In this document: piece after piece, positions 13,641 to 27,238 of the stretch
Layout: each line of letters begins with the position of its first letter
Numbering within the stretch: the first letter of the stretch is position 1
Source of the DNA: an uncultured Ignavibacteriota bacterium
Lineage (GTDB): Bacteria; Bacteroidota; Ignavibacteria; UBA10030; UBA8401
Length of the DNA: 64,000 nucleotides
Assembly: GCA_903884005.1 (NCBI GenBank)
Contig: CAISDA010000063.1
Location: 1 to 64,000 of the forward strand
Reading direction: 5' to 3'
The notes under the pieces: generated by a model
What the model saw: the letters and a program-made list of their open reading frames with translations, nothing else
The model's database searches: none
What the model was told of the DNA's origin: nothing
Program-made: the position numbers and the translations under genes

Positions 13641-14543
13641 TTAAGGTTGCGTAATAGAGTATTGAAGCAGTGGATGGTTGAGAAGTTCATTTTTTAAGCC
13701 GACAACTTCATTCTTCACATTGCCAAACAACATATCCGATATTTTTTCTTTTTTCTTCTCACGTATCGTGGCCGGCATGCCTTTGATGTTCGCCAGTTTG
13801 CCGGCGATCACTATGGCGTCTTCATAGGTGCCGAGCGTATCGACAAGGCCCAATTCATACGCCCGCTTGCCCGTGTATACTCTGCCGTCGGCGAGCGTCT
13901 TTACAAGATCCAGGGGAAGTTTTCGCTCGCTCGACACGACTGCGACGAACTGTCCGTAGACGTCGTCGATCATTTCCTGAAAATATTTTTTGTCTTCCTC
14001 TGTCGGCGCGCGCATCGGCGAGCCGGCATCTTTTAATTTCCCGCTTTTGATCGTCGTGGAGCTCACACCGATCTTGGCGAGCAGCTGATTGTAGTGAATA
14101 AACTGCGAGATCACACCGATGCTTCCGGTGATCGTTCCGGGATTGGCAACAATTTTATTCGCTCCGCACGACACATAATAGCCGCCGCTTGCAGCCATCG
14201 CCCCCATGGACACGACAACGGGCTTTCCCGAGTTGCGCGTCTTTTTCACTTCTTCATAAATTTCCTGGCTGGCCGCGACGCCTCCGCCCGGCGATTCGAC
14301 GCGGAAGACGATCGCCTTCACTGCGCTGTTCTCGCGGTATTTCTTGAACAGACGCACGGTATTTTCCGACGAGACGATCGGCTCTTTCAGTTCGATGAGA
14401 GCGATCGTGCCATTGCTGCCCGACGCCACCTCTTCGTTTTCGTCATCGTGGAAAATGTAATACATGATGGAGAACATCACAATCACGAACACGAGAAAAA
14501 GCGCGGATAAGATACCGAAAATCCATTTTGAAGTTGTTGTCAC
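13641..14543 (-). CDS. sppA: Signal peptide peptidase SppA (short form)
   Basis: Membrane-anchored serine protease that degrades cleaved signal peptides and membrane protein fragments. One N-terminal membrane segment lies at residues 7-30. The catalytic core follows: VESPGGGVAAS (oxyanion region, about 82), MGAMAASGGYYV with nucleophile Ser119, then GSIGVI and the lysine-bearing KSGKLKDAGSP near 166-176, which supplies the general-base Lys. At 300 residues it is the single-domain type as in Bacillus, not the 618-residue Escherichia form. It lies 18 bases upstream of the HU gene on the same strand. Confidence 0.92.
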   Translation of the reverse strand: MTTTSKWIFGILSALFLVFVIVMFSIMYYIFHDDENEEVASGSNGTIALIELKEPIVSSENTVRLFKKYRENSAVKAIVFRVESPGGGVAASQEIYEEVKKTRNSGKPVVVSMGAMAASGGYYVSCGANKIVANPGTITGSIGVISQFIHYNQLLAKIGVSSTTIKSGKLKDAGSPMRAPTEEDKKYFQEMIDDVYGQFVAVVSSERKLPLDLVKTLADGRVYTGKRAYELGLVDTLGTYEDAIVIAGKLANIKGMPATIREKKKEKISDMLFGNVKNEVVGLKNELLNHPLLQYSITQP

Positions 14544-14662
14544 GGCGTCCCGGTAGTGTCAGTCTAACTTATTGAAATGAATATAATTATAAGAAAATTG
14601 GAGGGGAATGTCAATCATTATTTACGAGGCGTAAAAGTGCATCCTACACATCTGCGTTGCTA

Positions 14663-16044: not shown

Positions 16045-16785
16045 CTATTGAGGCATCGAGACGAGCACGTAAAATATTTTTTTCTTCAGATCGCGCCATC
16101 GGGCGACGACGCGAATATTGCGGAGCTCGGCGGCGAAGTCATTGTGCCGAAGGTCCTGCCCTTCCTTTTCATCAAGTTTTTGACGCCCGACAACCTGTGT
16201 TCCCACCTGCCTGGCAAGCGCAAGGCGGGCGGTGCGCTCGGCAAGTTCCCATGAACTTGTTTCATAATAATATTCCTGCGCCGTACCGACGGCGAAGTCC
16301 GTCTTCGGTTTGGAGGGCAGCGCTTCAACCCATGCGGGCATTCGGACCGATCCGATGAAAATCTTCGCCCTCATCGCGTTGCTCAGTTCGATCGTCGAAT
16401 CTCCCGCCAATGTGATCGTCTTTTTTTTGTCGTGATAGGCATCGAGTATGCGGAATTCGCCCTGAATGCGTTCCGACAGCAGGGTGTCATACCGAACGCT
16501 GATATCCGACCCCATCCACGCGTTTCCCCCCTCGGTGGACCAGAATGTCTCACCTCCGATGACGGAACAAGAGGCGTACATTGCATACGCCGTGCATCCA
16601 AGACGAAATGCATAGCGCGCCGCGCTGTCTGGAATCCGGGCAGGTTGCACATACCCGACGCCGATCCGGGCGGACTGGATCTCACCCTGGTACAAAAACC
16701 AGCGCGGGTACGTCTGTGCCTGCGCGCGGCAGGGATAGATACTTGCAATAACGGCAATACAATACATCCAACGGAAATTCATCAT
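16045..16785 (-). CDS. Secreted LPP20-like protein
   Basis: A 246-residue exported protein. The start at 16785 gives MMNFRWMYCIAVIASIYPCRA with an A-Q-A type signal peptidase site. The body shows two LPP20-like repeats: RWFLYQGEIQSARIGVGYVQPA near residue 28, and a fuller one, MPAWVEALPSKPKTDFAVGTAQEYY with a following AERTARLALARQV, near 150-195. LPP20-type domains are found in Helicobacter Lpp20 and in FCB and spirochaete envelope proteins; function is poorly defined. It is the last of three such genes in tandem (16045-19040). Confidence 0.6.
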   Translation of the reverse strand: MMNFRWMYCIAVIASIYPCRAQAQTYPRWFLYQGEIQSARIGVGYVQPARIPDSAARYAFRLGCTAYAMYASCSVIGGETFWSTEGGNAWMGSDISVRYDTLLSERIQGEFRILDAYHDKKKTITLAGDSTIELSNAMRAKIFIGSVRMPAWVEALPSKPKTDFAVGTAQEYYYETSSWELAERTARLALARQVGTQVVGRQKLDEKEGQDLRHNDFAAELRNIRVVARWRDLKKKIFYVLVSMPQ

Positions 16786-16842
16786 ACACGTATGCTCAGG
16801 ACCCGGCGTCCGCACTTGGTGGACACAACTGCGCCGGGTTAC

Positions 16843-16874
16843 AAAAAACCCCCAGTGTCTTTCGATACCGGGGG
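16843..16874 (-). terminator. Rho-independent terminator between LPP20-like genes
   Basis: On the minus strand CCCCC (16874-16870) followed by GGTATC, a GAAA loop, and the complementary GACACTGGGGG form an 11-position stem, then TTTTTT (16848-16843). A second GC-rich hairpin, ACCCGGCG / CGCCGGGT, occupies 16801-16840 without a T-run. Placed 20 bases after the LPP20-like lipoprotein gene. Confidence 0.85.
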
Positions 16875-16893
16875 CACGGGAAACGTCCCGTTG

Positions 16894-17472
16894 TTATTTC
16901 GCGTTTTCTTTTTTGAATTGCTCGTACTTTTCAACATCAGCATCCATTTCCTTGTAGACCTGTGTTGCGCGGAACCGCGTATACAGCTGTTCCTTCTTTT
17001 GCACCTGTGCTTTGAACGCTTCCTGGGCTGCACCGAGGGGATACTGCACGAGCACATACGCGCGCCACATCTTGCCATCCTTCACGATCTTCTTGTTGAT
17101 CTCTTTCGATCCGGTCAGGCTTGTGGAGACAACGGTCTTCGATGCCTGCGTGAACTGATCCAATAATTGCGCATCCTCGCCGACGCCCGTTTCTTCCTGG
17201 AACCGTTTCTGGATACCCTGAATTTTGGTTTCTACCTGGCGCCCGATACCGGTCCGTCCGGCCTGAACGGCCTTGTCGACGGCGAGCTGCATATCCTGCG
17301 ATGTTGCTGTTGCCGGCTCGTACAGGAAATTGGGGTCTTCCGGTTTGTTCAAATACCAATCGGGAATATCGCCTTCAGTCGTTGTTTGCATCGTCTGTTT
17401 GCTTCCTCCTCCACACGACATGACAAGGACCATGAGAAATGCTGCTGCAAAAAACTGTGTAAGTGTGCGCAT
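16894..17472 (-). CDS. LPP20-like lipoprotein
   Basis: A 192-residue lipoprotein. The ATG at 17472 has GGAGG five bases upstream and gives the signal MRTLTQFFAAAFLMVLVMSC with a lipobox ending in Cys20; an upstream extension to 17658 is unsupported. The mature part contains IPDWYLNKPEDPNFLYEPAT, the WY-NPP-type opening of LPP20 domains, then AVDKAVQAGRTGIGRQVE and a long charged C-terminal coiled coil. Its start and lipobox differ from the neighbouring paralogues, so the trio may sit in different envelope compartments. Function unknown. Confidence 0.7.
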   Translation of the reverse strand: MRTLTQFFAAAFLMVLVMSCGGGSKQTMQTTTEGDIPDWYLNKPEDPNFLYEPATATSQDMQLAVDKAVQAGRTGIGRQVETKIQGIQKRFQEETGVGEDAQLLDQFTQASKTVVSTSLTGSKEINKKIVKDGKMWRAYVLVQYPLGAAQEAFKAQVQKKEQLYTRFRATQVYKEMDADVEKYEQFKKENAK

Positions 17473-17672
17473 ATAACCTCCGAGTAGTGAGACGAATTGA
17501 ATCGCGTGATTTATGGTGGTGTATCGATAGCATCGTGTGCACTGGGTACAATGTGTGAATATAAGAACATTTATTGCAAATAAAAATACCCCCGTGATTC
17601 CGGTCACTTCAGCCGTTGTCTTCGGCCGAACACCTCCCCCTCGTCTTCCCCGGCACACCCGTTCCCGATTCG

Positions 17673-19040
17673 CTATTTCCTGTATTTTTCCAGCAGCAGC
17701 GGTATCACTTCGGTCTTCAGGACCGATGCGGCTTCGTCCAGGGCTTTCATTCCCGCCTTCTCGTACGTATCGCTGATGCCTTTCATATTCGACACCGAAT
17801 TTTTGTAGATCTCATCGCCGGTGCTCAAATCGATGACCGATACCGTGGCATCGGCAAAGGCAACACAGAGCCCGTGAGTTTCAGAACCGCGCCGTGAATC
17901 GGCCGTGATGTCGATCGAAATGGCGGCGGCCGATTGCTGCTTCGTGAACGAAAATCCTTCGCTCGACAGCATTCCCTTCAGCGCGGGTTCGATGCGGGGC
18001 AGTCGCAAGGGACTGCCGAATTGCGTTTCCTGCGTCTTAACGTACACGGAGATACCCGCAACGTTCAAAATGATCTTCGCGCTCGGCACGGAAAATCCCC
18101 TGGCAAGCGCGCTCAACACGCTGTCGCTCCCCAGCATCGGCGACAGGTCGATCCGTGCGCCGATCATCTGCAGTTTGTCCGTCGCCGTGATCTTTGCCAC
18201 ACGCGTCGCTGCGACCCCCAACTGGTCTGTTGCGGACGATGGAACCAACTCGCCCGCCCCGCGCAGGAATGAAAACCGAACGGGCAGCATCGACACCGGC
18301 GCCTGCTGTCCGCGGGCATTGGCATAATGCACCGAAAATTCCACCGGACCCCTGACCGGTTTGCCGATCTGCGCTTCGAGAGGCGAAATTTTCGGCTCTA
18401 TCTCGATCGCATTCAGCGTGGTCTGCAGCGACTGTACGATTTCGTTGACAAGAAATATTTTTTTTCCGTTGTATGACGCCTCTACCGGCTCCACGAGATA
18501 CTTGCCGACGGCGGAAAGCGCCAGCAGATACGACCGCACCGCATCGGCCGCCTTGTCGTCATTCTCGCTTGCCTTCGCCTTCGTAAAATAATCCAGCGCA
18601 AGAGACGCAGCCTGCTGCATCTTTGCGCGCCGGAGGCGGTTGTATTCCTCTATGTTCAATCGCAGATAGGTCCACGACTGCGACTCGGTCTCGTATGTAT
18701 CGACAGTCTCTACGCCTTCCAACTCCGCCGATGTGGATGAACGGAGCTGCGCCTGATAGTCGTCTGTGATCTTTCCCATCTGTTCCGAGATCCGGCTGAT
18801 CTGTTCGCCCGATATCAACACCGTGATCTGCGATGCTATGTCGTTCAGCGCCGCATGCTTCGTGCGGGCGAGGTACGCTTCGGGGTTCCCCCGCTTTTCA
18901 GCCGTACCGATGCCGATGTAATATCCCGGTACGGAGGGACGTTTTTCGACCCACGACGGTATTCCCGCATGGGCGCATGCAGAGGCCAGCACGGCACTCA
19001 CGACGGCGATGTGCAGCAGCTGGGAGCAATAAGTGCGCAT
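17673..19040 (-). CDS. Large LPP20-like secreted protein
   Basis: A 455-residue exported protein beginning MRTYCSQLLHIAVVSAVLAS; it has CAHAG after the hydrophobic core, so either signal peptidase I or II cleavage is possible. Residues 27-150 form an LPP20-like domain (IPSWVEKRPSVPGYYIGIGT, then ARTKHAALNDIASQITV). The middle is a helical stretch and an immunoglobulin-like region. The last 120 residues resemble FlgO/CsgG-like nucleotide-fold lipoproteins in layout (SIDITADSRRG, VIDLSTGDEIYK), which is a weak resemblance only. Start codon is 4 bases downstream of the M48 peptidase stop. Confidence 0.6.
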   Translation of the reverse strand: MRTYCSQLLHIAVVSAVLASACAHAGIPSWVEKRPSVPGYYIGIGTAEKRGNPEAYLARTKHAALNDIASQITVLISGEQISRISEQMGKITDDYQAQLRSSTSAELEGVETVDTYETESQSWTYLRLNIEEYNRLRRAKMQQAASLALDYFTKAKASENDDKAADAVRSYLLALSAVGKYLVEPVEASYNGKKIFLVNEIVQSLQTTLNAIEIEPKISPLEAQIGKPVRGPVEFSVHYANARGQQAPVSMLPVRFSFLRGAGELVPSSATDQLGVAATRVAKITATDKLQMIGARIDLSPMLGSDSVLSALARGFSVPSAKIILNVAGISVYVKTQETQFGSPLRLPRIEPALKGMLSSEGFSFTKQQSAAAISIDITADSRRGSETHGLCVAFADATVSVIDLSTGDEIYKNSVSNMKGISDTYEKAGMKALDEAASVLKTEVIPLLLEKYRK

Positions 19041-19044
19041 GAGA

Positions 19045-20247
19045 TCAGATCCCGGATGTATATTTTTTGAAACGATCGGTGAATTGTTTTTTGGGTTCGG
19101 GCGACCATCGTTCCGCTGAAATGGTCTGCCGCACTTTTACCACCCGATCGCGAACGTCATCGCCCGTCATAAAATTGGAGGCGAAGATGTCCGTCGTTTT
19201 TTCGAGCGGTTCCTCCATCCGCACCAGCAGCGGCTGCAGAGCCGTTTGATCGTACCCGGCACGCTTCAAATACGTCATCGCAAGCTGGTCCGCTTCAAAT
19301 TCATAGGAGATAAGGCGGGGACGCATGACATTGTCGTATGCCTCATCGGCAAATGAATCCAGTTCTTTCTCGTCGCTGCTTTTTTCCTCTCCGACCTCCT
19401 CATCCAGTTCAGCAAAGGCCTCCTCTGCATGGATCTTCGGCGTGCGTATATGAAGTTCTTTTATTCCATGACGCTGTATGATGTGGCCCATCTCGTGCCC
19501 GATGAGCGCCGCAAGCTCCGCCTCATTCGTGCATTGTTTCAACAAGCCGTCGGTGATGAAAATGTATCCTCCGGGACACGACAGGGCGTTCACCTTTTGA
19601 TCGGCCAGGATCGCGACGCGGAATGTCACGTCGTATGCGCGCGTGTATTTGGCCAGATAGTTCGCGATCAAATTCACGTAGGCTGTGGCCACCTTATTGT
19701 CCAGCAATCCCTGTGCGGCGACTCGCTGAGCGATGCCGAGGCCGATCGCATCTTCGTGGAACGTCAGATCGAATGGCTTCTCCACACGCATATACCCGCG
19801 GAACTGCTGCACCGAAAAGCTGCGTTCAAACGCGTCCATGTCCTCCGGGCCGAATGACCGCGATTCGTATTTGTTTAATGTTTCTTCGCTCTGTGTGCCT
19901 TCGGGCACATATTTCTTTGCGAACCCTTTTACCGCCGCCGCAAGTTCCGCTCGCGACGCGCGCGAGGTCGTCTTGCCTTTTGTCAGCGCATCGGGGCGCT
20001 GGTCGCTCCGTTTTGCAAAACTGTTTTCCGACAGCCAGCCGACATCCTTCGCGCCCGTTTTCACCTTTACCCAGCTTCCCTTGTGTTCGAGCACGTACAC
20101 TGCAACATTGGCTTCGATCGTCGCAATGACATCGTAATACGAGGCGGGCCCTTCCCGCACATAATTAACCGGCTGCGTCGTCTTCATCTGCTCGGCGGCG
20201 GTAATCAAAGTGCAGCAGAGAGCAACTACAAGTATCATTGTTTTCAT
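19045..20247 (-). CDS. Secreted M48-family metalloprotease with N-terminal SH3b domain
   Basis: A 400-residue exported peptidase. The ATG at 20247 follows GGAGG and gives a signal MKTMILVVALCCTLITAA. Residues about 25-80 form a bacterial SH3 domain (NYVREGPASYYDVIATI, GSWVKVKTGAKDVGWLSE), usually a peptidoglycan- or ligand-binding module. The M48 domain shows IGHEMGHIIQRH (HExxH at about 251-255) and RLISYEFEADQLAMTYL, with the third zinc-ligand Glu. It is likely a BepA-like periplasmic outer-membrane quality-control protease. It is in a tight row with the LPP20 genes (4 bases to the next) and 45 bases from the CHASE2 cyclase. Confidence 0.85.
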   Translation of the reverse strand: MKTMILVVALCCTLITAAEQMKTTQPVNYVREGPASYYDVIATIEANVAVYVLEHKGSWVKVKTGAKDVGWLSENSFAKRSDQRPDALTKGKTTSRASRAELAAAVKGFAKKYVPEGTQSEETLNKYESRSFGPEDMDAFERSFSVQQFRGYMRVEKPFDLTFHEDAIGLGIAQRVAAQGLLDNKVATAYVNLIANYLAKYTRAYDVTFRVAILADQKVNALSCPGGYIFITDGLLKQCTNEAELAALIGHEMGHIIQRHGIKELHIRTPKIHAEEAFAELDEEVGEEKSSDEKELDSFADEAYDNVMRPRLISYEFEADQLAMTYLKRAGYDQTALQPLLVRMEEPLEKTTDIFASNFMTGDDVRDRVVKVRQTISAERWSPEPKKQFTDRFKKYTSGI

Positions 20248-20292
20248 CGAAGCCTCCAATAATTGGTATTCGAATCCATGTATCTCATCCCC

Positions 20293-22431
20293 CTACTTCG
20301 CCTTCATCGTATACACGCCGTCCCAATCCGCGCCGGGCGGCGTCTGCATGAACTCTCGGCACCGCGCGACGTACATCACGGACGGCGGATCGTTCGGCAC
20401 CATGATCGCCGCTTTTTCGAAGAGGGCGATCGCGTCGGTCCATCGCTGGGATCGGTACATCTCTAACGCGGCCTGAAATGTGTCCATTCCTGCGACCATC
20501 GCATCGGCGGCTTCCTCCCGAGTGCAGACGATCTCGAATATTTTAATGGGATGCTGCTTCCCTTTCACGCGGATCATATCCAGTTCGCGCAGCAGAAATT
20601 CTTTCGCGGCGGCCGCAGCCGTAAATTCGCTGATCATGAGCGACGTGCCGTAGAACTTATTCACGCCTTCGAGCCTCGATGCCAGGTTCACCGTGTCCCC
20701 GATGGCCGTGTATTCCATCCGGAGGCTGCTGCCGATGCTGCCGACGATCATCTTCCCGCTGTTCACGCCGATACGCGTCGAGAACACAGGGTCGCCCTTC
20801 GCGCGCGCTTCCTTCGTCAGCTTCTCGATGGACCGATGGAACTCATACGCGCCCCTGCAGGCCTGCAATGCGTGGTCCTCGCTCCTGACCGGTGCGCCGA
20901 AGAGCACCATCACCGCATCCCCGATAAATTTATCGATTGTTCCGTTGTATTTCAAATAGATTTTCGTGGCGCCCGCAAAGTACTCGTTTAAAAAGGCAAC
21001 CAACTCGCGCGGCGATTTTTTTTCGGAGATCGACGTGAAGCCCTCGATATCCGAGAACAACACTGTGGCCTCGACTTCAACGCCGCTCACGCCGGCATCA
21101 TCCGGACTCGCGGCCAATTGACGGACGATATGCGGGTTCACATACCGCCCGAACATCTTCTGCATCTGCCGCTTCGCTCGTCCTTCGGTGGCATAACTCC
21201 ACCCGAGAGCGATCACAAACGTCATCACGGCCGTGCTCATGGGAAACACCACCGGCAGAAGATAGAGCATCCGTGCAAACAACTCGAACGCAGTCAGCCA
21301 ATAGACAAGGAGGATGCCGACAGTCAACGCGGACACGGTCCACACTTTAGGATCGTACGTTGCTATGGACGCGATGATAATCGTCAACACGATCGCGATC
21401 GCCCACACACTCGTTTGCGAAGCGGCCTGTACAATATGCCCCTGCAGAAAATTGCTCATTGCTGTGGCATGGATCTCGACGCCGGGATACGGTTCCTCCG
21501 GTGTGAAGGGGGTATTGCGCAGATCAAAAAGTCCCGGAGCATTGGCACCGACGAACACGATCTTATCTTTGAAGACGGACCCTGGAACATCCACACTCTG
21601 GTGCTTCAGCTCTTTCATCGCGCTGACAATGACAGCGTGTAGTGAATAATACCGGAACACACCGTCCGGTCCGCCCTTGCCATAATAATAGAGAAGGAAT
21701 GGAGATCGCAGATTCGGAACATCCGATCCGCGCATGTCTTTAAATACCTGGAACGACAATGTGTACAGCGGCCTGCCGAGATACTCATAGACCAGCGGCA
21801 GACGTCGGCAGACCCCGTCTTCATCGGGGAAAATATTCACCACGCCCACACCGGCCGCCCCCGTCTGCATCTGCATCAGCGGCGCATACGTCTTGTCGAA
21901 TCGATACTGCTCGGTGATGTGGACCGGTGCAGGCACCGGCGCAGCGATCAGCGTATCTCCCTGCTGGTCGGCATCGTACGCCGTTGTTAGCTGCGCGCCA
22001 AGATAGACATGGCGGCCGTCGCGGATCGATTCTGCGAATGTTTTGTCATTCTCCGCGCCGACCGACCCTACACGGTCTTCATCCGGTTCGTTGAAATGGA
22101 AATCATAGACGAGAGCCCGTGCCCCGCCGTTCATGACATACTGTGTGGCCAGCGCATAAAAATCGCGCGGCCAGGGCCAGCTGCTGTGCCGTTTTTTAAA
22201 ATATTGAAGACTGTTCTGATCGATGGTGAGTATGACGATGGATGTGTCGGCAGACCTGTTATGACGCGAATATTTCAGACGAAGGTCATACGACGACAAT
22301 TCCGTTGCCGTGCCGAGATACGTGAGGCTGAAGAGCCAGGCGCACACGATCCCGAACGCCCCCGAAAACAGGAAGCGCACTTGTTTCGTGAAGAGATATC
22401 GCCGAAGTGTGTCGCTGACGGCGCGCGGCAA
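20293..22431 (-). CDS. CHASE2-domain adenylate cyclase (class III)
   Basis: A 712-residue membrane receptor cyclase. After an N-terminal membrane segment (residues 20-40) comes an extracytoplasmic CHASE2 sensor domain (for example IVILTIDQNSLQ, SSWPWPRDFYA, RALVYDFHF, DKIVFVGANAPGLFDLRNTP). Then come three membrane segments near 340-410 and a class III catalytic domain with VLFSDIEGFTS and DKFIGDAVMVLFGAP, which provide both metal-binding aspartates. The Lys of DKF and the later AIGDTVNLASRLEG favour ATP over GTP as substrate. A short TPR-like tail follows. It makes cAMP in response to an unknown periplasmic signal. It lies 45 bases upstream of the M48 peptidase gene. Confidence 0.88.
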   Translation of the reverse strand: MPRAVSDTLRRYLFTKQVRFLFSGAFGIVCAWLFSLTYLGTATELSSYDLRLKYSRHNRSADTSIVILTIDQNSLQYFKKRHSSWPWPRDFYALATQYVMNGGARALVYDFHFNEPDEDRVGSVGAENDKTFAESIRDGRHVYLGAQLTTAYDADQQGDTLIAAPVPAPVHITEQYRFDKTYAPLMQMQTGAAGVGVVNIFPDEDGVCRRLPLVYEYLGRPLYTLSFQVFKDMRGSDVPNLRSPFLLYYYGKGGPDGVFRYYSLHAVIVSAMKELKHQSVDVPGSVFKDKIVFVGANAPGLFDLRNTPFTPEEPYPGVEIHATAMSNFLQGHIVQAASQTSVWAIAIVLTIIIASIATYDPKVWTVSALTVGILLVYWLTAFELFARMLYLLPVVFPMSTAVMTFVIALGWSYATEGRAKRQMQKMFGRYVNPHIVRQLAASPDDAGVSGVEVEATVLFSDIEGFTSISEKKSPRELVAFLNEYFAGATKIYLKYNGTIDKFIGDAVMVLFGAPVRSEDHALQACRGAYEFHRSIEKLTKEARAKGDPVFSTRIGVNSGKMIVGSIGSSLRMEYTAIGDTVNLASRLEGVNKFYGTSLMISEFTAAAAAKEFLLRELDMIRVKGKQHPIKIFEIVCTREEAADAMVAGMDTFQAALEMYRSQRWTDAIALFEKAAIMVPNDPPSVMYVARCREFMQTPPGADWDGVYTMKAK

Positions 22432-23490: not shown

Positions 23491-24321
23491 CTATCCTAGA
23501 TAGATGGCGATAAGCCCGACGATCATATCGTATTTGATGATCGTGCTCAGGCGATGAAGATTGGCGACAGAAGCATCCCTCCAGAGTGAATAGATCACAT
23601 AGGTCAGCACCGTGATCATGCCGAAGCCGACAAAAAGAAAATATTTCCACGTGTACATGCCCAAGGCGAACGGATAGACCGCGGCACCGATGAGCGAGAC
23701 TAAAAACAGCGTCGCAGCGGCGGCGCCTGCCGTCAACCCGTACTTCACAGGCAGCGTCATCGCGCCATTTCGGCGGTCCCCTTCCACGTCCTCCATGTCC
23801 TTGATGATCTCGCGGCCGACATTGAGCAGCATGGCGAACAGCGCGGGAAGCAGCGCCCGATCCATGTTTCCGACCGTTGCGCCGCCATAGAGAAATGCGA
23901 GCCCGGTCATGAAGCCGACGGCAAGGTTGCCGAGAAGGACTGTCCGCTTCAACACCGCGCTGTAAAAATAAATGAAAAGGACGGCGAAGAGGGCAATGTA
24001 TTGCGCCGCGGGGGGAAGCAGGAAACCGAACGCAAGTCCGACGGCATTCAGGATCATATAGAGCAGCTTCGCGTGCTCCAACGGCACAGACCCGTTTGCC
24101 AGAGGCCTGTCCGGCTTGTTGACCTTGTCTATGTCGATGTCAAGAACGTCGTTGACCACCATGCCGCCGGCGCCGATGAAGGCTCCGGAACATGCCGCCC
24201 CGGCGATCGCCGCCCATTGGGCGCCGGTGCCGCCGGAGAGCAGCGAGGCGACACCGATGGAAAAAAACGTGATGACAAAATTCGACGGGCGCAGCAACTG
24301 TATGTAAGGTTTCATCATCAT
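23491..24321 (-). CDS. UbiA-family prenyltransferase (DGGGP synthase-like)
   Basis: Polytopic membrane enzyme of 276 residues with about eight to nine membrane segments and two Asp-rich motifs: NDVLDIDIDKVNKPDRPLA (residues about 57-75) and REIIKDMEDVEGDRRNGAM (about 166-184). The second, with its KD-ED--GD--GA pattern, is the version seen in geranylgeranylglyceryl-phosphate geranylgeranyltransferase of archaea and FCB bacteria; menaquinone and heme UbiA enzymes differ. The natural substrate is not proven. Its start codon overlaps the stop of the BamA-like gene by one base (TAATG), so the two are translationally coupled. Confidence 0.78.
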   Translation of the reverse strand: MMMKPYIQLLRPSNFVITFFSIGVASLLSGGTGAQWAAIAGAACSGAFIGAGGMVVNDVLDIDIDKVNKPDRPLANGSVPLEHAKLLYMILNAVGLAFGFLLPPAAQYIALFAVLFIYFYSAVLKRTVLLGNLAVGFMTGLAFLYGGATVGNMDRALLPALFAMLLNVGREIIKDMEDVEGDRRNGAMTLPVKYGLTAGAAAATLFLVSLIGAAVYPFALGMYTWKYFLFVGFGMITVLTYVIYSLWRDASVANLHRLSTIIKYDMIVGLIAIYLG

Positions 24322-25934
24322 TAGAATTCGTTCACAACGCCGAAATGAATTTTACCGCTGCTGAATGTGTCGCCTCTTCCAAGCGCGTAACTGACGCCGA
24401 GAATGCCCAGCGCTGTTTCAAGCCGCGTGCCGATGCCGACGCCGGAGAGCAGCTTTTCCTGCCCGGCAATGCCGCTCCCCGCCTGATCGGGCCGGGAAAA
24501 ATATCCGGCATCGATGAATGTGAAGACATGCGAAAGCCGGCCCGTCAGAAACCGGTACTCGAACGAGGTCCATGCCACGCGCGAACCGAAAAACTGGCAC
24601 TCCCGATATCCCCGTACGGTGTTCGATCCGCCGAACGGATACATGTCGCTGAGTTCAAGCACGGACGACGCAGCCTGTTTTCCATGCACGCCCAGGGCAA
24701 ACACATGCCGCCGCCACGGCATAGTATAGAGATCGACATCCACTGCAATGCGGCTTGTAAAATAATTTTTTGCGTCCACCGCCGCTATATATTGCGCGGG
24801 GCCGGTAATTTTTTTTGTCCCGCTCTGGTAACTCGTGCTGTATCTCAGCCCGGACGTGGGAGACCGCATGTTGTCGCGCGTGTCGTATTTGATCTCTCCG
24901 CCCAGGATCAGCGACGAACTCTCATATACTGAAAATTGCTGAATGTCGGATGAAGGATAGATGGACTCGGAATTCACCGTGCCGGACAGGGTCAATTCAT
25001 CGGTCAGATTATAATCGGCCCGGGCGGAAACGATGCTCTTCACATAGAGCGAATCCTGCTTCCGCTGGAAATACCCTGCGCCGATGTCCACCGGCAGCTG
25101 CAGGAACCAGGGCTCGGTGTAATGCAGTTCCAATTCCTGCGTCGAGGCTGTTTCGCGCTGCCACCTCGCCCCCAGTTTTCGGCCGGTGCCGAATATGTTT
25201 TTCATCACCAGCGATACGGTCCCGGTCACATATCCGTTCTCCCCCGCCGCCGCCGCGGGAACATAGCCCAACACTCCGTCGAACGACGTTGCGCTCCCTT
25301 CCTGCACAGTGCAGAGCAGCCCGCCGTTGCGAAGTGCGCTTGCCGACGAAGCCGTATCGTTCAACAGATATAATTGAATATCACCGACCGACGAAAACAG
25401 CTGCAGCCGGTCCAGGCGGCGGCGCAGCCGATCCACTTTCGATTGGGAAAAATATTCACCTGCACGCAGCCTCGCTTCGCGGATCAGAACATTGCCCTGC
25501 GTTCCCGTATTTCCCTGCACCGTCATTTCGCGAAGCACAACGCGCGCACCCTCGCGTATAGAGAACACCAGTGCTGCATGGGGCGCAGACATCGTATCGT
25601 CCAGCGTGATGCCGATGCGGATTTCCGCAAACGGAAATCCGAGTTCGGCATACTGCGAGAGCATCGCCTGAATGTCGCGCTCTATAGTCGATTGTTCGAG
25701 CGGGGAACCCTCGGATATTTCCGCCAGCCGTCGCAGCGATGCATCACTTACGGCTGCATTTCCTTCAAACCGGACTGACGAAACGATGGGAAGCGTGTCT
25801 TGCGAAAAAGAGGCGCAGGAAAGAAGAACAATCACGGCACAGCATCGACTGAACAACGAGACGGACGAAATGAAATGCCATCGGCTTCTGCCGCGCCGAA
25901 CCGAACACCGCATATCAACATCAGGCTTGCCCAT
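24321..25934 (-). CDS. BamA/TamA-family outer-membrane protein
   Basis: A 537-residue Omp85-superfamily protein. A signal-like segment (CCAVIVLLSCASFS) is followed by two POTRA-like modules (VSSVRFEGNAAVSDASLRRL near 50; VLREMTVQGNTGTQGNVLI near 130). A 16-strand beta-barrel then carries LGGEIKYDTRDNMRSPTSGL and FGGSNTVRGYRECQFFGSR, the latter matching the conserved VRGY of the L6 loop. It ends in the aromatic residue Phe expected of outer-membrane barrels. It is shorter than BamA (five POTRA) and more like a TamA or two-POTRA assembly or secretion factor. It overlaps both neighbours by one base. Confidence 0.82.
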   Translation of the reverse strand: MGKPDVDMRCSVRRGRSRWHFISSVSLFSRCCAVIVLLSCASFSQDTLPIVSSVRFEGNAAVSDASLRRLAEISEGSPLEQSTIERDIQAMLSQYAELGFPFAEIRIGITLDDTMSAPHAALVFSIREGARVVLREMTVQGNTGTQGNVLIREARLRAGEYFSQSKVDRLRRRLDRLQLFSSVGDIQLYLLNDTASSASALRNGGLLCTVQEGSATSFDGVLGYVPAAAAGENGYVTGTVSLVMKNIFGTGRKLGARWQRETASTQELELHYTEPWFLQLPVDIGAGYFQRKQDSLYVKSIVSARADYNLTDELTLSGTVNSESIYPSSDIQQFSVYESSSLILGGEIKYDTRDNMRSPTSGLRYSTSYQSGTKKITGPAQYIAAVDAKNYFTSRIAVDVDLYTMPWRRHVFALGVHGKQAASSVLELSDMYPFGGSNTVRGYRECQFFGSRVAWTSFEYRFLTGRLSHVFTFIDAGYFSRPDQAGSGIAGQEKLLSGVGIGTRLETALGILGVSYALGRGDTFSSGKIHFGVVNEF

Positions 25935-27238
25935 TATTTGGCGCGCTGAAGCAGGTCGTAAATCGGTGTGATCAATTTGTAATCTCCGAACCCGGTGTCA
26001 TCCACAAACACCACGGTCCTGTTATAGTCATAATACGACCATACTTCATACGGCTTCGAATCGATGTCGAAGGGATGGCGCTCAACATTGTTCGGAGAAC
26101 CGAGCAGGATGAACACCATTCCCATATCGGTCCTCCACCCGGCGAGGTAATGCGAAAAATGCTCGTTCGCATATTCGACGCGCGAATAATATTCCTCCAT
26201 GAATTCGTTCCGCTTCGTGTCCGGACTCGGGTCGCGCCGCTGCCAGAACTCGGTGAACAATTTTTGCTTTTCTTCGTTCGTTTTCGCGTCTATCATGTCG
26301 TTGTATTCTTTATCCTTGGCGATATAGCGCAGCTGCCGTATTGCGAGGTCCAGATCGGTGATGCTGAACGGCAAATTGCCCCACCGGGCCACGAATGTTT
26401 TTTTCCTCAGCCCGCTTTGGATCTCACCGTCGGCGCCAGGCTTCAACGAGCGGTTCTCGATCGTGAGCGTGTATGCACCCGACGAGAATTGCGCCGTATC
26501 CAGTTTCTCGATGACCTGAGTTTTCCTGCCCGAGAGCTTATGCAGCACGCGCTGTAAAAACACATTCTCGTGCTTGGCGGCCGAGATCGAATAGAGGGAT
26601 TCCACGGAATCGGTTCCCCCGCCGTTATACAATTCGTAAAACACATACAGTCCGTTGACAACATCGGCGACGTTGCCCGAAATATTCGGCACCATGTTCA
26701 GCCGCCCCTTATCGCTTGTCACGCGGCTGATGAGCATCACATCGCTCATGGTCAACGATGGAACGGCGTAGTTATCCACCACGACCTTCCTCACGATTGT
26801 TGCCGTCTTCTTCGACTCATTGTCGTGCACTTGCGCGCGCAGCATGTACGTGCCGGGGAGCAGGTCGAAGGAACGCTGCGTCAAATTGTAGGCTGAACGC
26901 CTTTCCGTTTCTTCGTACGTCTCGTGGCGGATCTCTTCGGTCCATGTTTTTTCGGCAATGGAGGCATTCTCTTCGGTCATGATATTCACCGACGCTTCAT
27001 ACTGTGCCTTATATCCCGGGTTCAACGCCACAAACCGGATAACGTCGTACGGTACGTGAATATAGACGTCCAGCCGTGAATGAGTGGAATCGTTCGAGGC
27101 GAAACTGAGGGCATCCAGGTAGAATTCGGGAATGTCGCTTCCCTGCACGGGCTTTCGCGCTTCAACCTGTGCAAACGCTGCAGACCATACTCCACACAGA
27201 ATGATGAAAATATATGTCGTCCGTAGTTTCATTGGCAA
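25934..27238 (-). CDS. GWxTD-domain secreted protein
   Basis: A 434-residue exported protein with signal LRTTYIFIILCGVWSAAFA. The C-terminal GWxTD domain, named after its motif, appears as AGWRTDMGMVFILLGSPNNV followed by KPYEVWSYYDYNRTVVFVD. Before it lie two beta-rich segments. Such proteins are common in Acidobacteria and the Chlorobi/Bacteroidota group, and no reaction is known. It is the first gene of a coupled trio with the BamA-like protein and the UbiA enzyme (each overlapping by one base). It follows rimO by 5 bases, which puts it in a longer operon with rimO, cdsA and a CPBP protease. Confidence 0.85.
   Translation of the reverse strand: MPMKLRTTYIFIILCGVWSAAFAQVEARKPVQGSDIPEFYLDALSFASNDSTHSRLDVYIHVPYDVIRFVALNPGYKAQYEASVNIMTEENASIAEKTWTEEIRHETYEETERRSAYNLTQRSFDLLPGTYMLRAQVHDNESKKTATIVRKVVVDNYAVPSLTMSDVMLISRVTSDKGRLNMVPNISGNVADVVNGLYVFYELYNGGGTDSVESLYSISAAKHENVFLQRVLHKLSGRKTQVIEKLDTAQFSSGAYTLTIENRSLKPGADGEIQSGLRKKTFVARWGNLPFSITDLDLAIRQLRYIAKDKEYNDMIDAKTNEEKQKLFTEFWQRRDPSPDTKRNEFMEEYYSRVEYANEHFSHYLAGWRTDMGMVFILLGSPNNVERHPFDIDSKPYEVWSYYDYNRTVVFVDDTGFGDYKLITPIYDLLQRAK

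Follow-up and report, generated by a model that had tools for sequence, protein, structure and literature searches.

A widely conserved, envelope-linked gene set of a CHASE2 adenylate cyclase, an SH3-M48 protease and LPP20-type proteins in Ignavibacteriota, with a predicted role in signaling

The stretch of DNA analyzed here (the window) comprises 64,000 nucleotides from an uncultured Ignavibacteriota bacterium (GenBank assembly GCA_903884005.1, contig CAISDA010000063.1, positions 1 to 64,000 of the forward strand). A preliminary description of the window pointed to five consecutive minus-strand genes, and all five are present and intact between positions 16045 and 22431. In the order in which they would be transcribed, they encode a CHASE2 adenylate cyclase (AC, 20293-22431), a metalloprotease with an SH3 domain (M48, 19045-20247), a multidomain LPP20 protein (L455, 17673-19040), a small LPP20-type lipoprotein (L191, 16894-17472) and a second exported LPP20 protein (L256, 16045-16785). 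The spacings given earlier, 45 nucleotides (nt) between AC and M48 and 4 nt between M48 and L455, are correct, and the remaining gaps, which that description did not include, are 200 nt from L455 to L191 and 108 nt from L191 to L256. When the five proteins were compared with PHROGs, only M48 and AC gave matches, all of unknown function, and a phage origin of the set was set aside.

AC is a protein of 712 amino acids (aa) with a TTG start codon, in which a CHASE2 domain is followed by a transmembrane segment and a class III adenylate cyclase domain. Pfam detected CHASE2 (PF05226) at 170 bits, against a cut-off of 26.3, ahead of a Guanylate_cyc output domain at 88 bits. Residues D461 and K501 are kept in all 32 orthologues, and D505, T575, N582 and R586 are kept in 31, the remaining orthologue having a gap. 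Thus, AC carries the residues that define class III adenylate cyclases (two Asp, Lys, Thr/Asp, Asn and Arg), which we take to be the two metal-binding Asp residues, the substrate-binding Lys and Thr/Asp, and the transition-state Asn and Arg. As proposed in the preliminary description, the CHASE2 domain would sense the periplasm; the signal sensed by such domains is called largely unknown for a Burkholderia kinase (PMC5192318). The genome from which the window derives encodes three other CHASE2 cyclases, and the 4-kb loci of those three contain no match to the M48, L191, L256, L455 or MltC profiles. Five cNMP_binding matches, one of them interrupted by a stop, were found in the same genome.

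Another candidate function is a Pycsar-type cyclic-nucleotide anti-phage system, and the cyclase domain does score against the PADLOC PycC models (best E value, 3.3e-24). The match is limited to that domain, however; the other eight proteins scanned (four from the window and four from the relative G095) match no PADLOC model, and the partners are envelope proteins. Pycsar defense was set aside, as no PADLOC effector model was found among the nine proteins, and we give this explanation next to no credence.

M48 is 400 aa long, is predicted to be exported and contains an HEMGH zinc site, with Pfam matches to Peptidase_M48 (71 bits) and SH3_3 (33 bits). The catalytic residues H251, E252, H255 and E316, which make up the HExxH motif and the downstream Glu, are invariant in all 21 aligned sequences. 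Its best sequence relatives in the Protein Data Bank (PDB) are 3c37 and BepA (6ait). Identity with BepA was rejected, as the score was 63.5 bits against an NCBIfam equivalog cut-off of 570; HtpX was likewise rejected (best NCBIfam score of 15.9 bits against 355), and the LoiP model gave 30.3 bits against a cut-off of 365. The window protein shares an M48 catalytic domain and predicted export with the periplasmic proteases BepA and LoiP, whereas the SH3 domain at the N terminus is its own. A second M48 peptidase, presumably HtpX-like, is encoded after L256 (14890-15855, minus strand) and had no tblastn match in the short loci of relatives.

The three remaining genes had been described as LPP20-like, and that name is fair for all three. 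Pfam LPP20 (PF02169; cut-off, 25.9 bits) matches L455 at 40.1 bits and L256 at 26.7 bits, the latter over residues 159 to 253 of the 255-aa form. The window copy of L191 has no Pfam match itself, and its inclusion rests on the 19 of 25 aligned family members that match LPP20 at an E value of ≤1 (best E value, 1.6e-8). Moreover, hhalign assigned the L191 profile a probability of 77% to L256 and 74% to L455, and the L256 profile also finds L191 and L455 relatives at 17 to 33 bits. L191 is a protein of 192 aa with a lipobox Cys20 that is conserved without exception in the 25 aligned sequences, and no lipobox was seen in L256, such that the distinction drawn earlier between one clear lipoprotein and one protein without a lipobox holds.

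Structure prediction of L455 (mean pLDDT, 84.8) modeled a signal peptide-bearing protein with an LPP20 domain, a helical linker, an Ig-like domain and a C-terminal domain resembling CsgG, PelC and the N-domain of TolB. The LPP20 domain of the model aligned with Helicobacter pylori Lpp20 (5ok8; Z 9.3, 102 residues, 4.2 Å), the Ig-like domain with invasin (1cwv; Z 11.3, 91 residues, 2.1 Å) and the C-terminal domain with CsgG (6lqh; Z 10.6, 120 residues, 3.2 Å), as well as with PelC and the TolB N-domain. Structural matches within 1 Z unit are treated as tied, and in a model of more than 400 residues single-domain matches can score weakly. CsgG was also the best Foldseek match (E value, 4e-7). 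In the model of L256 (pLDDT, 86.9), two alpha/beta halves resemble each other and the second is the Pfam LPP20 domain; L256 may thus consist of two tandem LPP20-like domains. Foldseek returned no match to the L256 model at an E value of ≤0.001 and VIA-align 2 returned one at Z 2.3, so there was no significant PDB fold and the LPP20-like character of the first half rests on the predicted order of strands and helices. Searched against PDB sequences, the L191 and L455 profiles found no significant match (best E values, 0.21 and 0.37).

Relatives of L455 in named records came from 15 loci: 12 in metagenome assemblies of Bacteroidetes, Bacteroidota or Ignavibacteriae, one in a Fibrobacteres assembly (36% identity) and two weak matches of Campylobacterota type. 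The Fibrobacteres relative (L185) has no other profiled module gene within its 15-kb locus. A distant L455-like protein (44 bits) is also encoded elsewhere in the window's own genome (contig C6, stretch L168, 8454-9785), beside same-strand unannotated genes for proteins of 427 and 626 aa. L455-like proteins in stretches L166 and L169 have neighbors of about 422 aa, which are known by size, not by homology to the neighbors in L168.

Conservation of the neighborhood was examined in 98 genomes of the order, searched with each of four proteins; in a class sample of 391 genomes, searched with the M48 alignment (36 with a match); and in a phylum sample of 395 genomes, searched with the L191 alignment (46 with a match), for which 20 of the 49 L191 matches were retrieved as loci. 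Of 38 M48-anchored loci, 36 have AC directly upstream of M48 and on its strand. A distance of up to 700 nt was accepted as "directly upstream"; only the gaps in G093 and G092, of about 510 nt, exceed 169 nt. The two loci without this arrangement are one that ends at a contig edge and a second M48 copy that lacks AC. Of 43 L191-anchored loci, 23 have L256 as the gene after L191, and five more are ordered L191-AC-M48-L256. In the 20 phylum loci, L256 was near L191 in 7 and AC-M48 in one.

The four core genes, AC, M48, L191 and L256, occur together within 12 kb in 16 of 39 M48 stretches (G640 included), always on one strand. A further six stretches have three core genes and 17 have two or fewer; several of the 17 are contig ends or truncated AC frames that fall under the 300-bit cut used for the count, which drops those of G090, G092, G008.C85 and G213.C76. 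The 16 complete stretches span order families f1, f3 and f5, class families f12 and f14, and phylum family f53, represented by one genome outside the class, and show three arrangements: AC-M48-L191-L256, L191-L256-AC-M48 and L191-AC-M48-L256. As the same four genes are rejoined in three orders, the linkage outlives reshuffling. Moreover, L191 was present in 24 of 27 M48 genomes of the order but in only 11 of the other 71 (Cochran-Mantel-Haenszel test stratified by family, P = 4e-8, which is indicative because the genomes are related). Copies truncated at contig ends were counted (G097 for M48; G085 and G096 for L191), and the weak L191 matches in G026, G079 and G045 were not. We conclude that linkage of the module genes is conserved, which is well supported, and that a neighborhood confined to this one genome, the outcome that would have told against the preliminary description, is excluded.

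The set is larger in most relatives of the same family, where a PrsW protease, an MltC-type lytic transglycosylase and a PQQ propeller protein are added. The best-assembled f1 relatives (G088, G095 and G093) have the order AC-M48-PQQ propeller-MltC type-L455-PrsW-"DUF2135-like"-L191-L256, and other f1 relatives have parts of that order, with single genes missing or contigs broken. In G095, Pfam matched the partners to PrsW-protease (125 bits), Mltc_N (67 bits) with SLT (71 bits) and PQQ_2 (92 bits); the name "DUF2135-like" is our assumption for a family with no Pfam match at or near the cut-off. The window's own assembly, whose completeness is rated at 100%, gave no match to PrsW and, for the MltC type, a weak match to the SLT domain only (34.6 bits); the window therefore contains a reduced form. 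One relative, G096, has four extra genes between the MltC-type gene and L455 (stretch L040, 5737-13775), which encode two related proteins of about 400 aa, one of 1458 aa and a PEGA protein.

Other families join the core genes to other partners. M48 is followed directly by L455 in G075 of family f6 also, and in five further f6 genomes (G059, G060, G069, G070 and G071) a gene for an OMP_b-brl-type barrel lies directly beside AC in divergent orientation, followed by genes for a WD40-CsgG protein and an L455-like protein and, mostly, by L191 where the contig reaches. An OMP_b-brl-type gene is also found within the G047 cluster. G007 carries L191-L256-AC-M48-MltC type-L455-like on one strand, the last at 24 bits. 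Outside the order, L256 in G113 and G122 is followed directly by LpoB (149 and 137 bits), and beyond it come a protein of about 460 to 480 aa that Pfam does not clearly match and one with LPP20 (37.5 and 64.7 bits). The same kinds of gene, with one gene more, precede L191 in G667 (LpoB at 109 bits, five genes away; LPP20 at 50 bits), and the LpoB of G410 and G478 was identified by visual inspection only. A family of about 500 aa (alignment A7) with invariant Cys420, His447 and Asp474 also lies near L191 or L256 (L206, 10054-11550, with L209, L212, L242, L248, L250 and L251), standing near L256 in six stretches besides those above and in a duplicate of one of the six. Four members gave nothing significant in Pfam, and from the invariant Cys, His and Asp we presume that the family may be transglutaminase-like.

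To describe expression, motifs were counted on both strands of 13 stretches (456,700 bases). The motif GAAACT-N1-4-TATATTC precedes L191 in 9 of the 11 stretches that contain an L191 start, all nine in f1 relatives. The two misses are a contig-edge copy in G085 and the window, which keeps TATATTC at 17563-17557 on the minus strand, at the site of the relatives' motif, and has lost the rest. Elsewhere in the scan, the strict motif occurred once, at window position 1709 (plus strand), and the match is probably due to chance because it lies antisense within a 479-aa frame. A fuller form, CTTTCWTTT..GAAACT..TATATTC, precedes L191 in stretches L034, L035, L036, L037, L038, L039, L041, L042 and L137, and the motif is possibly a group-specific promoter class. 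Upstream of AC, four of five relatives examined have an element of another kind, TTGAATTTCA, which is not evident in the window; both this element and the CTTTCWTTT part of the L191 motif were read by eye. Downstream of L191, a hairpin with a T run that resembles an intrinsic terminator lies ahead of L256 (16843-16875, minus strand; -27.4 kcal/mol; z -2.74; matched by 1 of 200 shuffles). Hairpins with T-rich tails, found without a shuffle control, follow L191 in nine relatives, eight of them motif bearing and the ninth, G056, with the weakest.

As a promoter-like element stands before L191 in relatives and a terminator-like hairpin follows it both there and in the window, the locus probably contains two transcription units, AC-M48-L455 and L191, the latter perhaps with read-through into L256. 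Joint expression, suggested earlier from the gene spacings, is thus supported for AC-M48-L455 and not for all five genes. Two units, and members that vary between families, are what accidental neighbors of no common function would show. Accident is nonetheless very improbable in our view, given the return of the same genes in three orders on a single strand, the near-constant AC-M48 pair and a co-occurrence that exceeds family structure.

Two further features lie near the five genes. An Omp85-type protein with two POTRA stretches is encoded upstream of the cyclase (24321-27238, minus strand), beside UbiA, RNase HII and a neighbor that is presumably a GWxTD-like protein. A perfect sigma-70 consensus, TTGACA-17-TATAAT (12 of 12 positions), lies at 14586-14614 on the minus strand, just upstream of an SppA-like gene (13641-14543); such a consensus is unusual in this bacterial group.

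One function for the LPP20-type proteins could be in motility, with L191, L256 and L455 forming an outer-membrane ring like that of FlgP, FlgQ and FlgT, regulated by the cyclase and the protease. Outer-membrane flagellar rings are built from FlgP and FlgQ in Campylobacter and from FlgO, FlgP and FlgT in Vibrio (PMC12222027 and PMC7990780), where FlgP is a ring former of the SHS2/LPP20 type, FlgQ resembles two FlgP repeats and FlgT shares the fold (PMC12222027). The likeness lies in a one-domain LPP20/SHS2-type lipoprotein, a two-repeat partner, to which the two similar halves modeled in L256 would correspond, and a multidomain protein of the FlgT type. The structural matches of L455 include FlgT (3w1e), which does not superpose as a whole (18.1 Å), and Pfam reported LPP20 alone in L455 at an E value of ≤1, with no FlgT domain. 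In G113, the LpoB-type neighbor matches FlgT_M below the cut-off (25.9 bits against 31.2). FlhA was found in 18 of 27 M48 genomes and in 12 of 71 others (P = 0.005 when stratified by family), and the window's own genome has FlhA. Unlike the rings, however, the window set is linked to a cyclase and a protease and occurs in genomes with no FlhA match, which number 9 of the 27 M48 genomes and include G093 (100% complete, with the entire cluster) and G051 (99%). We consider a motility scaffold quite improbable and conclude that a purely flagellar role is unlikely, because of those nine genomes, and that there may still be some link to motility.

The Lpp20 lipoprotein of Helicobacter goes with HP1454 and HP1457, in a set for which we know of no cyclase and no M48. 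The likeness to the present set is that an LPP20 lipoprotein is associated with an LpoB-type protein, HP1457 being described as an LpoB homologue (PMC11394524). In Sinorhizobium meliloti, the CHASE2 cyclases CyaD1, CyaD2 and CyaK respond to a signal perceived via the outer-membrane beta-barrel NsrA, and the regulator is Clr (PMC13001267). That system resembles ours in its CHASE2 cyclase, envelope protein input and output through cAMP and a CRP-family regulator, whereas LPP20 proteins and an M48 partner are not among the parts described in the available text of PMC13001267. No beta-barrel partner for AC was recognized among the five window genes, and a barrel encoded elsewhere was not sought. 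The Burkholderia BiofilmReg operon likewise combines a CHASE2 sensor with an envelope protein, of the LysM-FecR type, but there CHASE2 sits on a histidine kinase, not a cyclase (PMC5192318). By analogy, the NsrA-CHASE2 cyclases and FlgP/FlgQ/FlgT appear to be the nearest counterparts. Consistent with the earlier statement that the connection is not described, no paper on a CHASE2 cyclase combined with LPP20 and M48 proteins, nor on PrsW, a lytic transglycosylase and an adenylate cyclase together, was found in the open-licence PubMed Central literature.

The S. meliloti precedent supports a reading in which the five genes are a surveillance module of the envelope (peptidoglycan and outer membrane) that reports to cAMP, a reading we find plausible, with the balance tipped slightly toward doubt. 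L191, as an outer-membrane or periplasmic lipoprotein, L256 and here also L455 would come together in the periplasm as an LPP20 assembly close to the outer membrane and the peptidoglycan. CHASE2, the periplasmic domain of the cyclase in the inner membrane, would read the state of that assembly, and the cytoplasmic domain of AC would make cAMP for cNMP-binding regulators, which may be some of the five matches in the genome. SH3-M48 would serve quality control in the periplasm, with its SH3 domain keeping it close to the wall, and it may act on or trim the same LPP20 assembly, thereby setting or resetting the signal. Consistent with a surveillance module, the partners in relatives are envelope or peptidoglycan proteins (PrsW, MltC type, PQQ_2, OMP_b-brl, WD40-CsgG and LpoB). 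The AC-M48 pairing, the linkage of the four core genes, the co-occurrence of L191 with M48, the conserved catalytic residues and the cNMP_binding matches also speak in its favor.

Several observations weigh against such a module. The different elements before L191 and AC in relatives mean that expression of the two may differ, and interaction of the parts and production of cAMP are predicted here from the genes alone. One M48 copy lacks AC, some of the 17 stretches with two or fewer core genes are real separations, and M48 is absent from 11 of the order's 35 L191 genomes. Lastly, the window's own assembly gave no PrsW match and has only the SLT match for the MltC type. The envelope sensing module of the preliminary description is strongly supported as an envelope-related set, given the conserved neighborhood and the co-occurrence of M48 and L191, and is not supported as a set of five jointly expressed genes.

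Alternatively, the direction could be reversed, with the cyclase responding to some other input and cAMP controlling an envelope-remodeling set, in activity or in expression. The LPP20 proteins would then be effectors that scaffold or activate lytic transglycosylase and synthase, and M48 would be a turnover protease. The lytic transglycosylase and LpoB-type activators near L191 and L256 in relatives would fit, as would the several stretches that carry an L191-L256 pair without AC or M48 nearby. Reversal does not account, however, for a linkage that is closest between AC and M48 while the peptidoglycan enzymes vary, and we regard it as rather unlikely.

We conclude that the set is a real and widely conserved cyclase module linked to the envelope, with a function that is predicted from sequence. 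More tentatively than for the surveillance module itself, the set might represent an undescribed form of outer-membrane-to-cytoplasm signaling in Bacteroidota, in which LPP20 assemblies and SH3-M48 would monitor peptidoglycan or outer-membrane integrity and signal via CHASE2 to cAMP, and PrsW, the lytic transglycosylase and LpoB-type activators would serve as outputs or accessories. LPP20 proteins are widespread and, to our knowledge, few roles for them are known. The conserved set gives named candidates, a defined protease and a small LPP20 lipoprotein, for both the input of CHASE2 and the role of LPP20, and makes the question testable.

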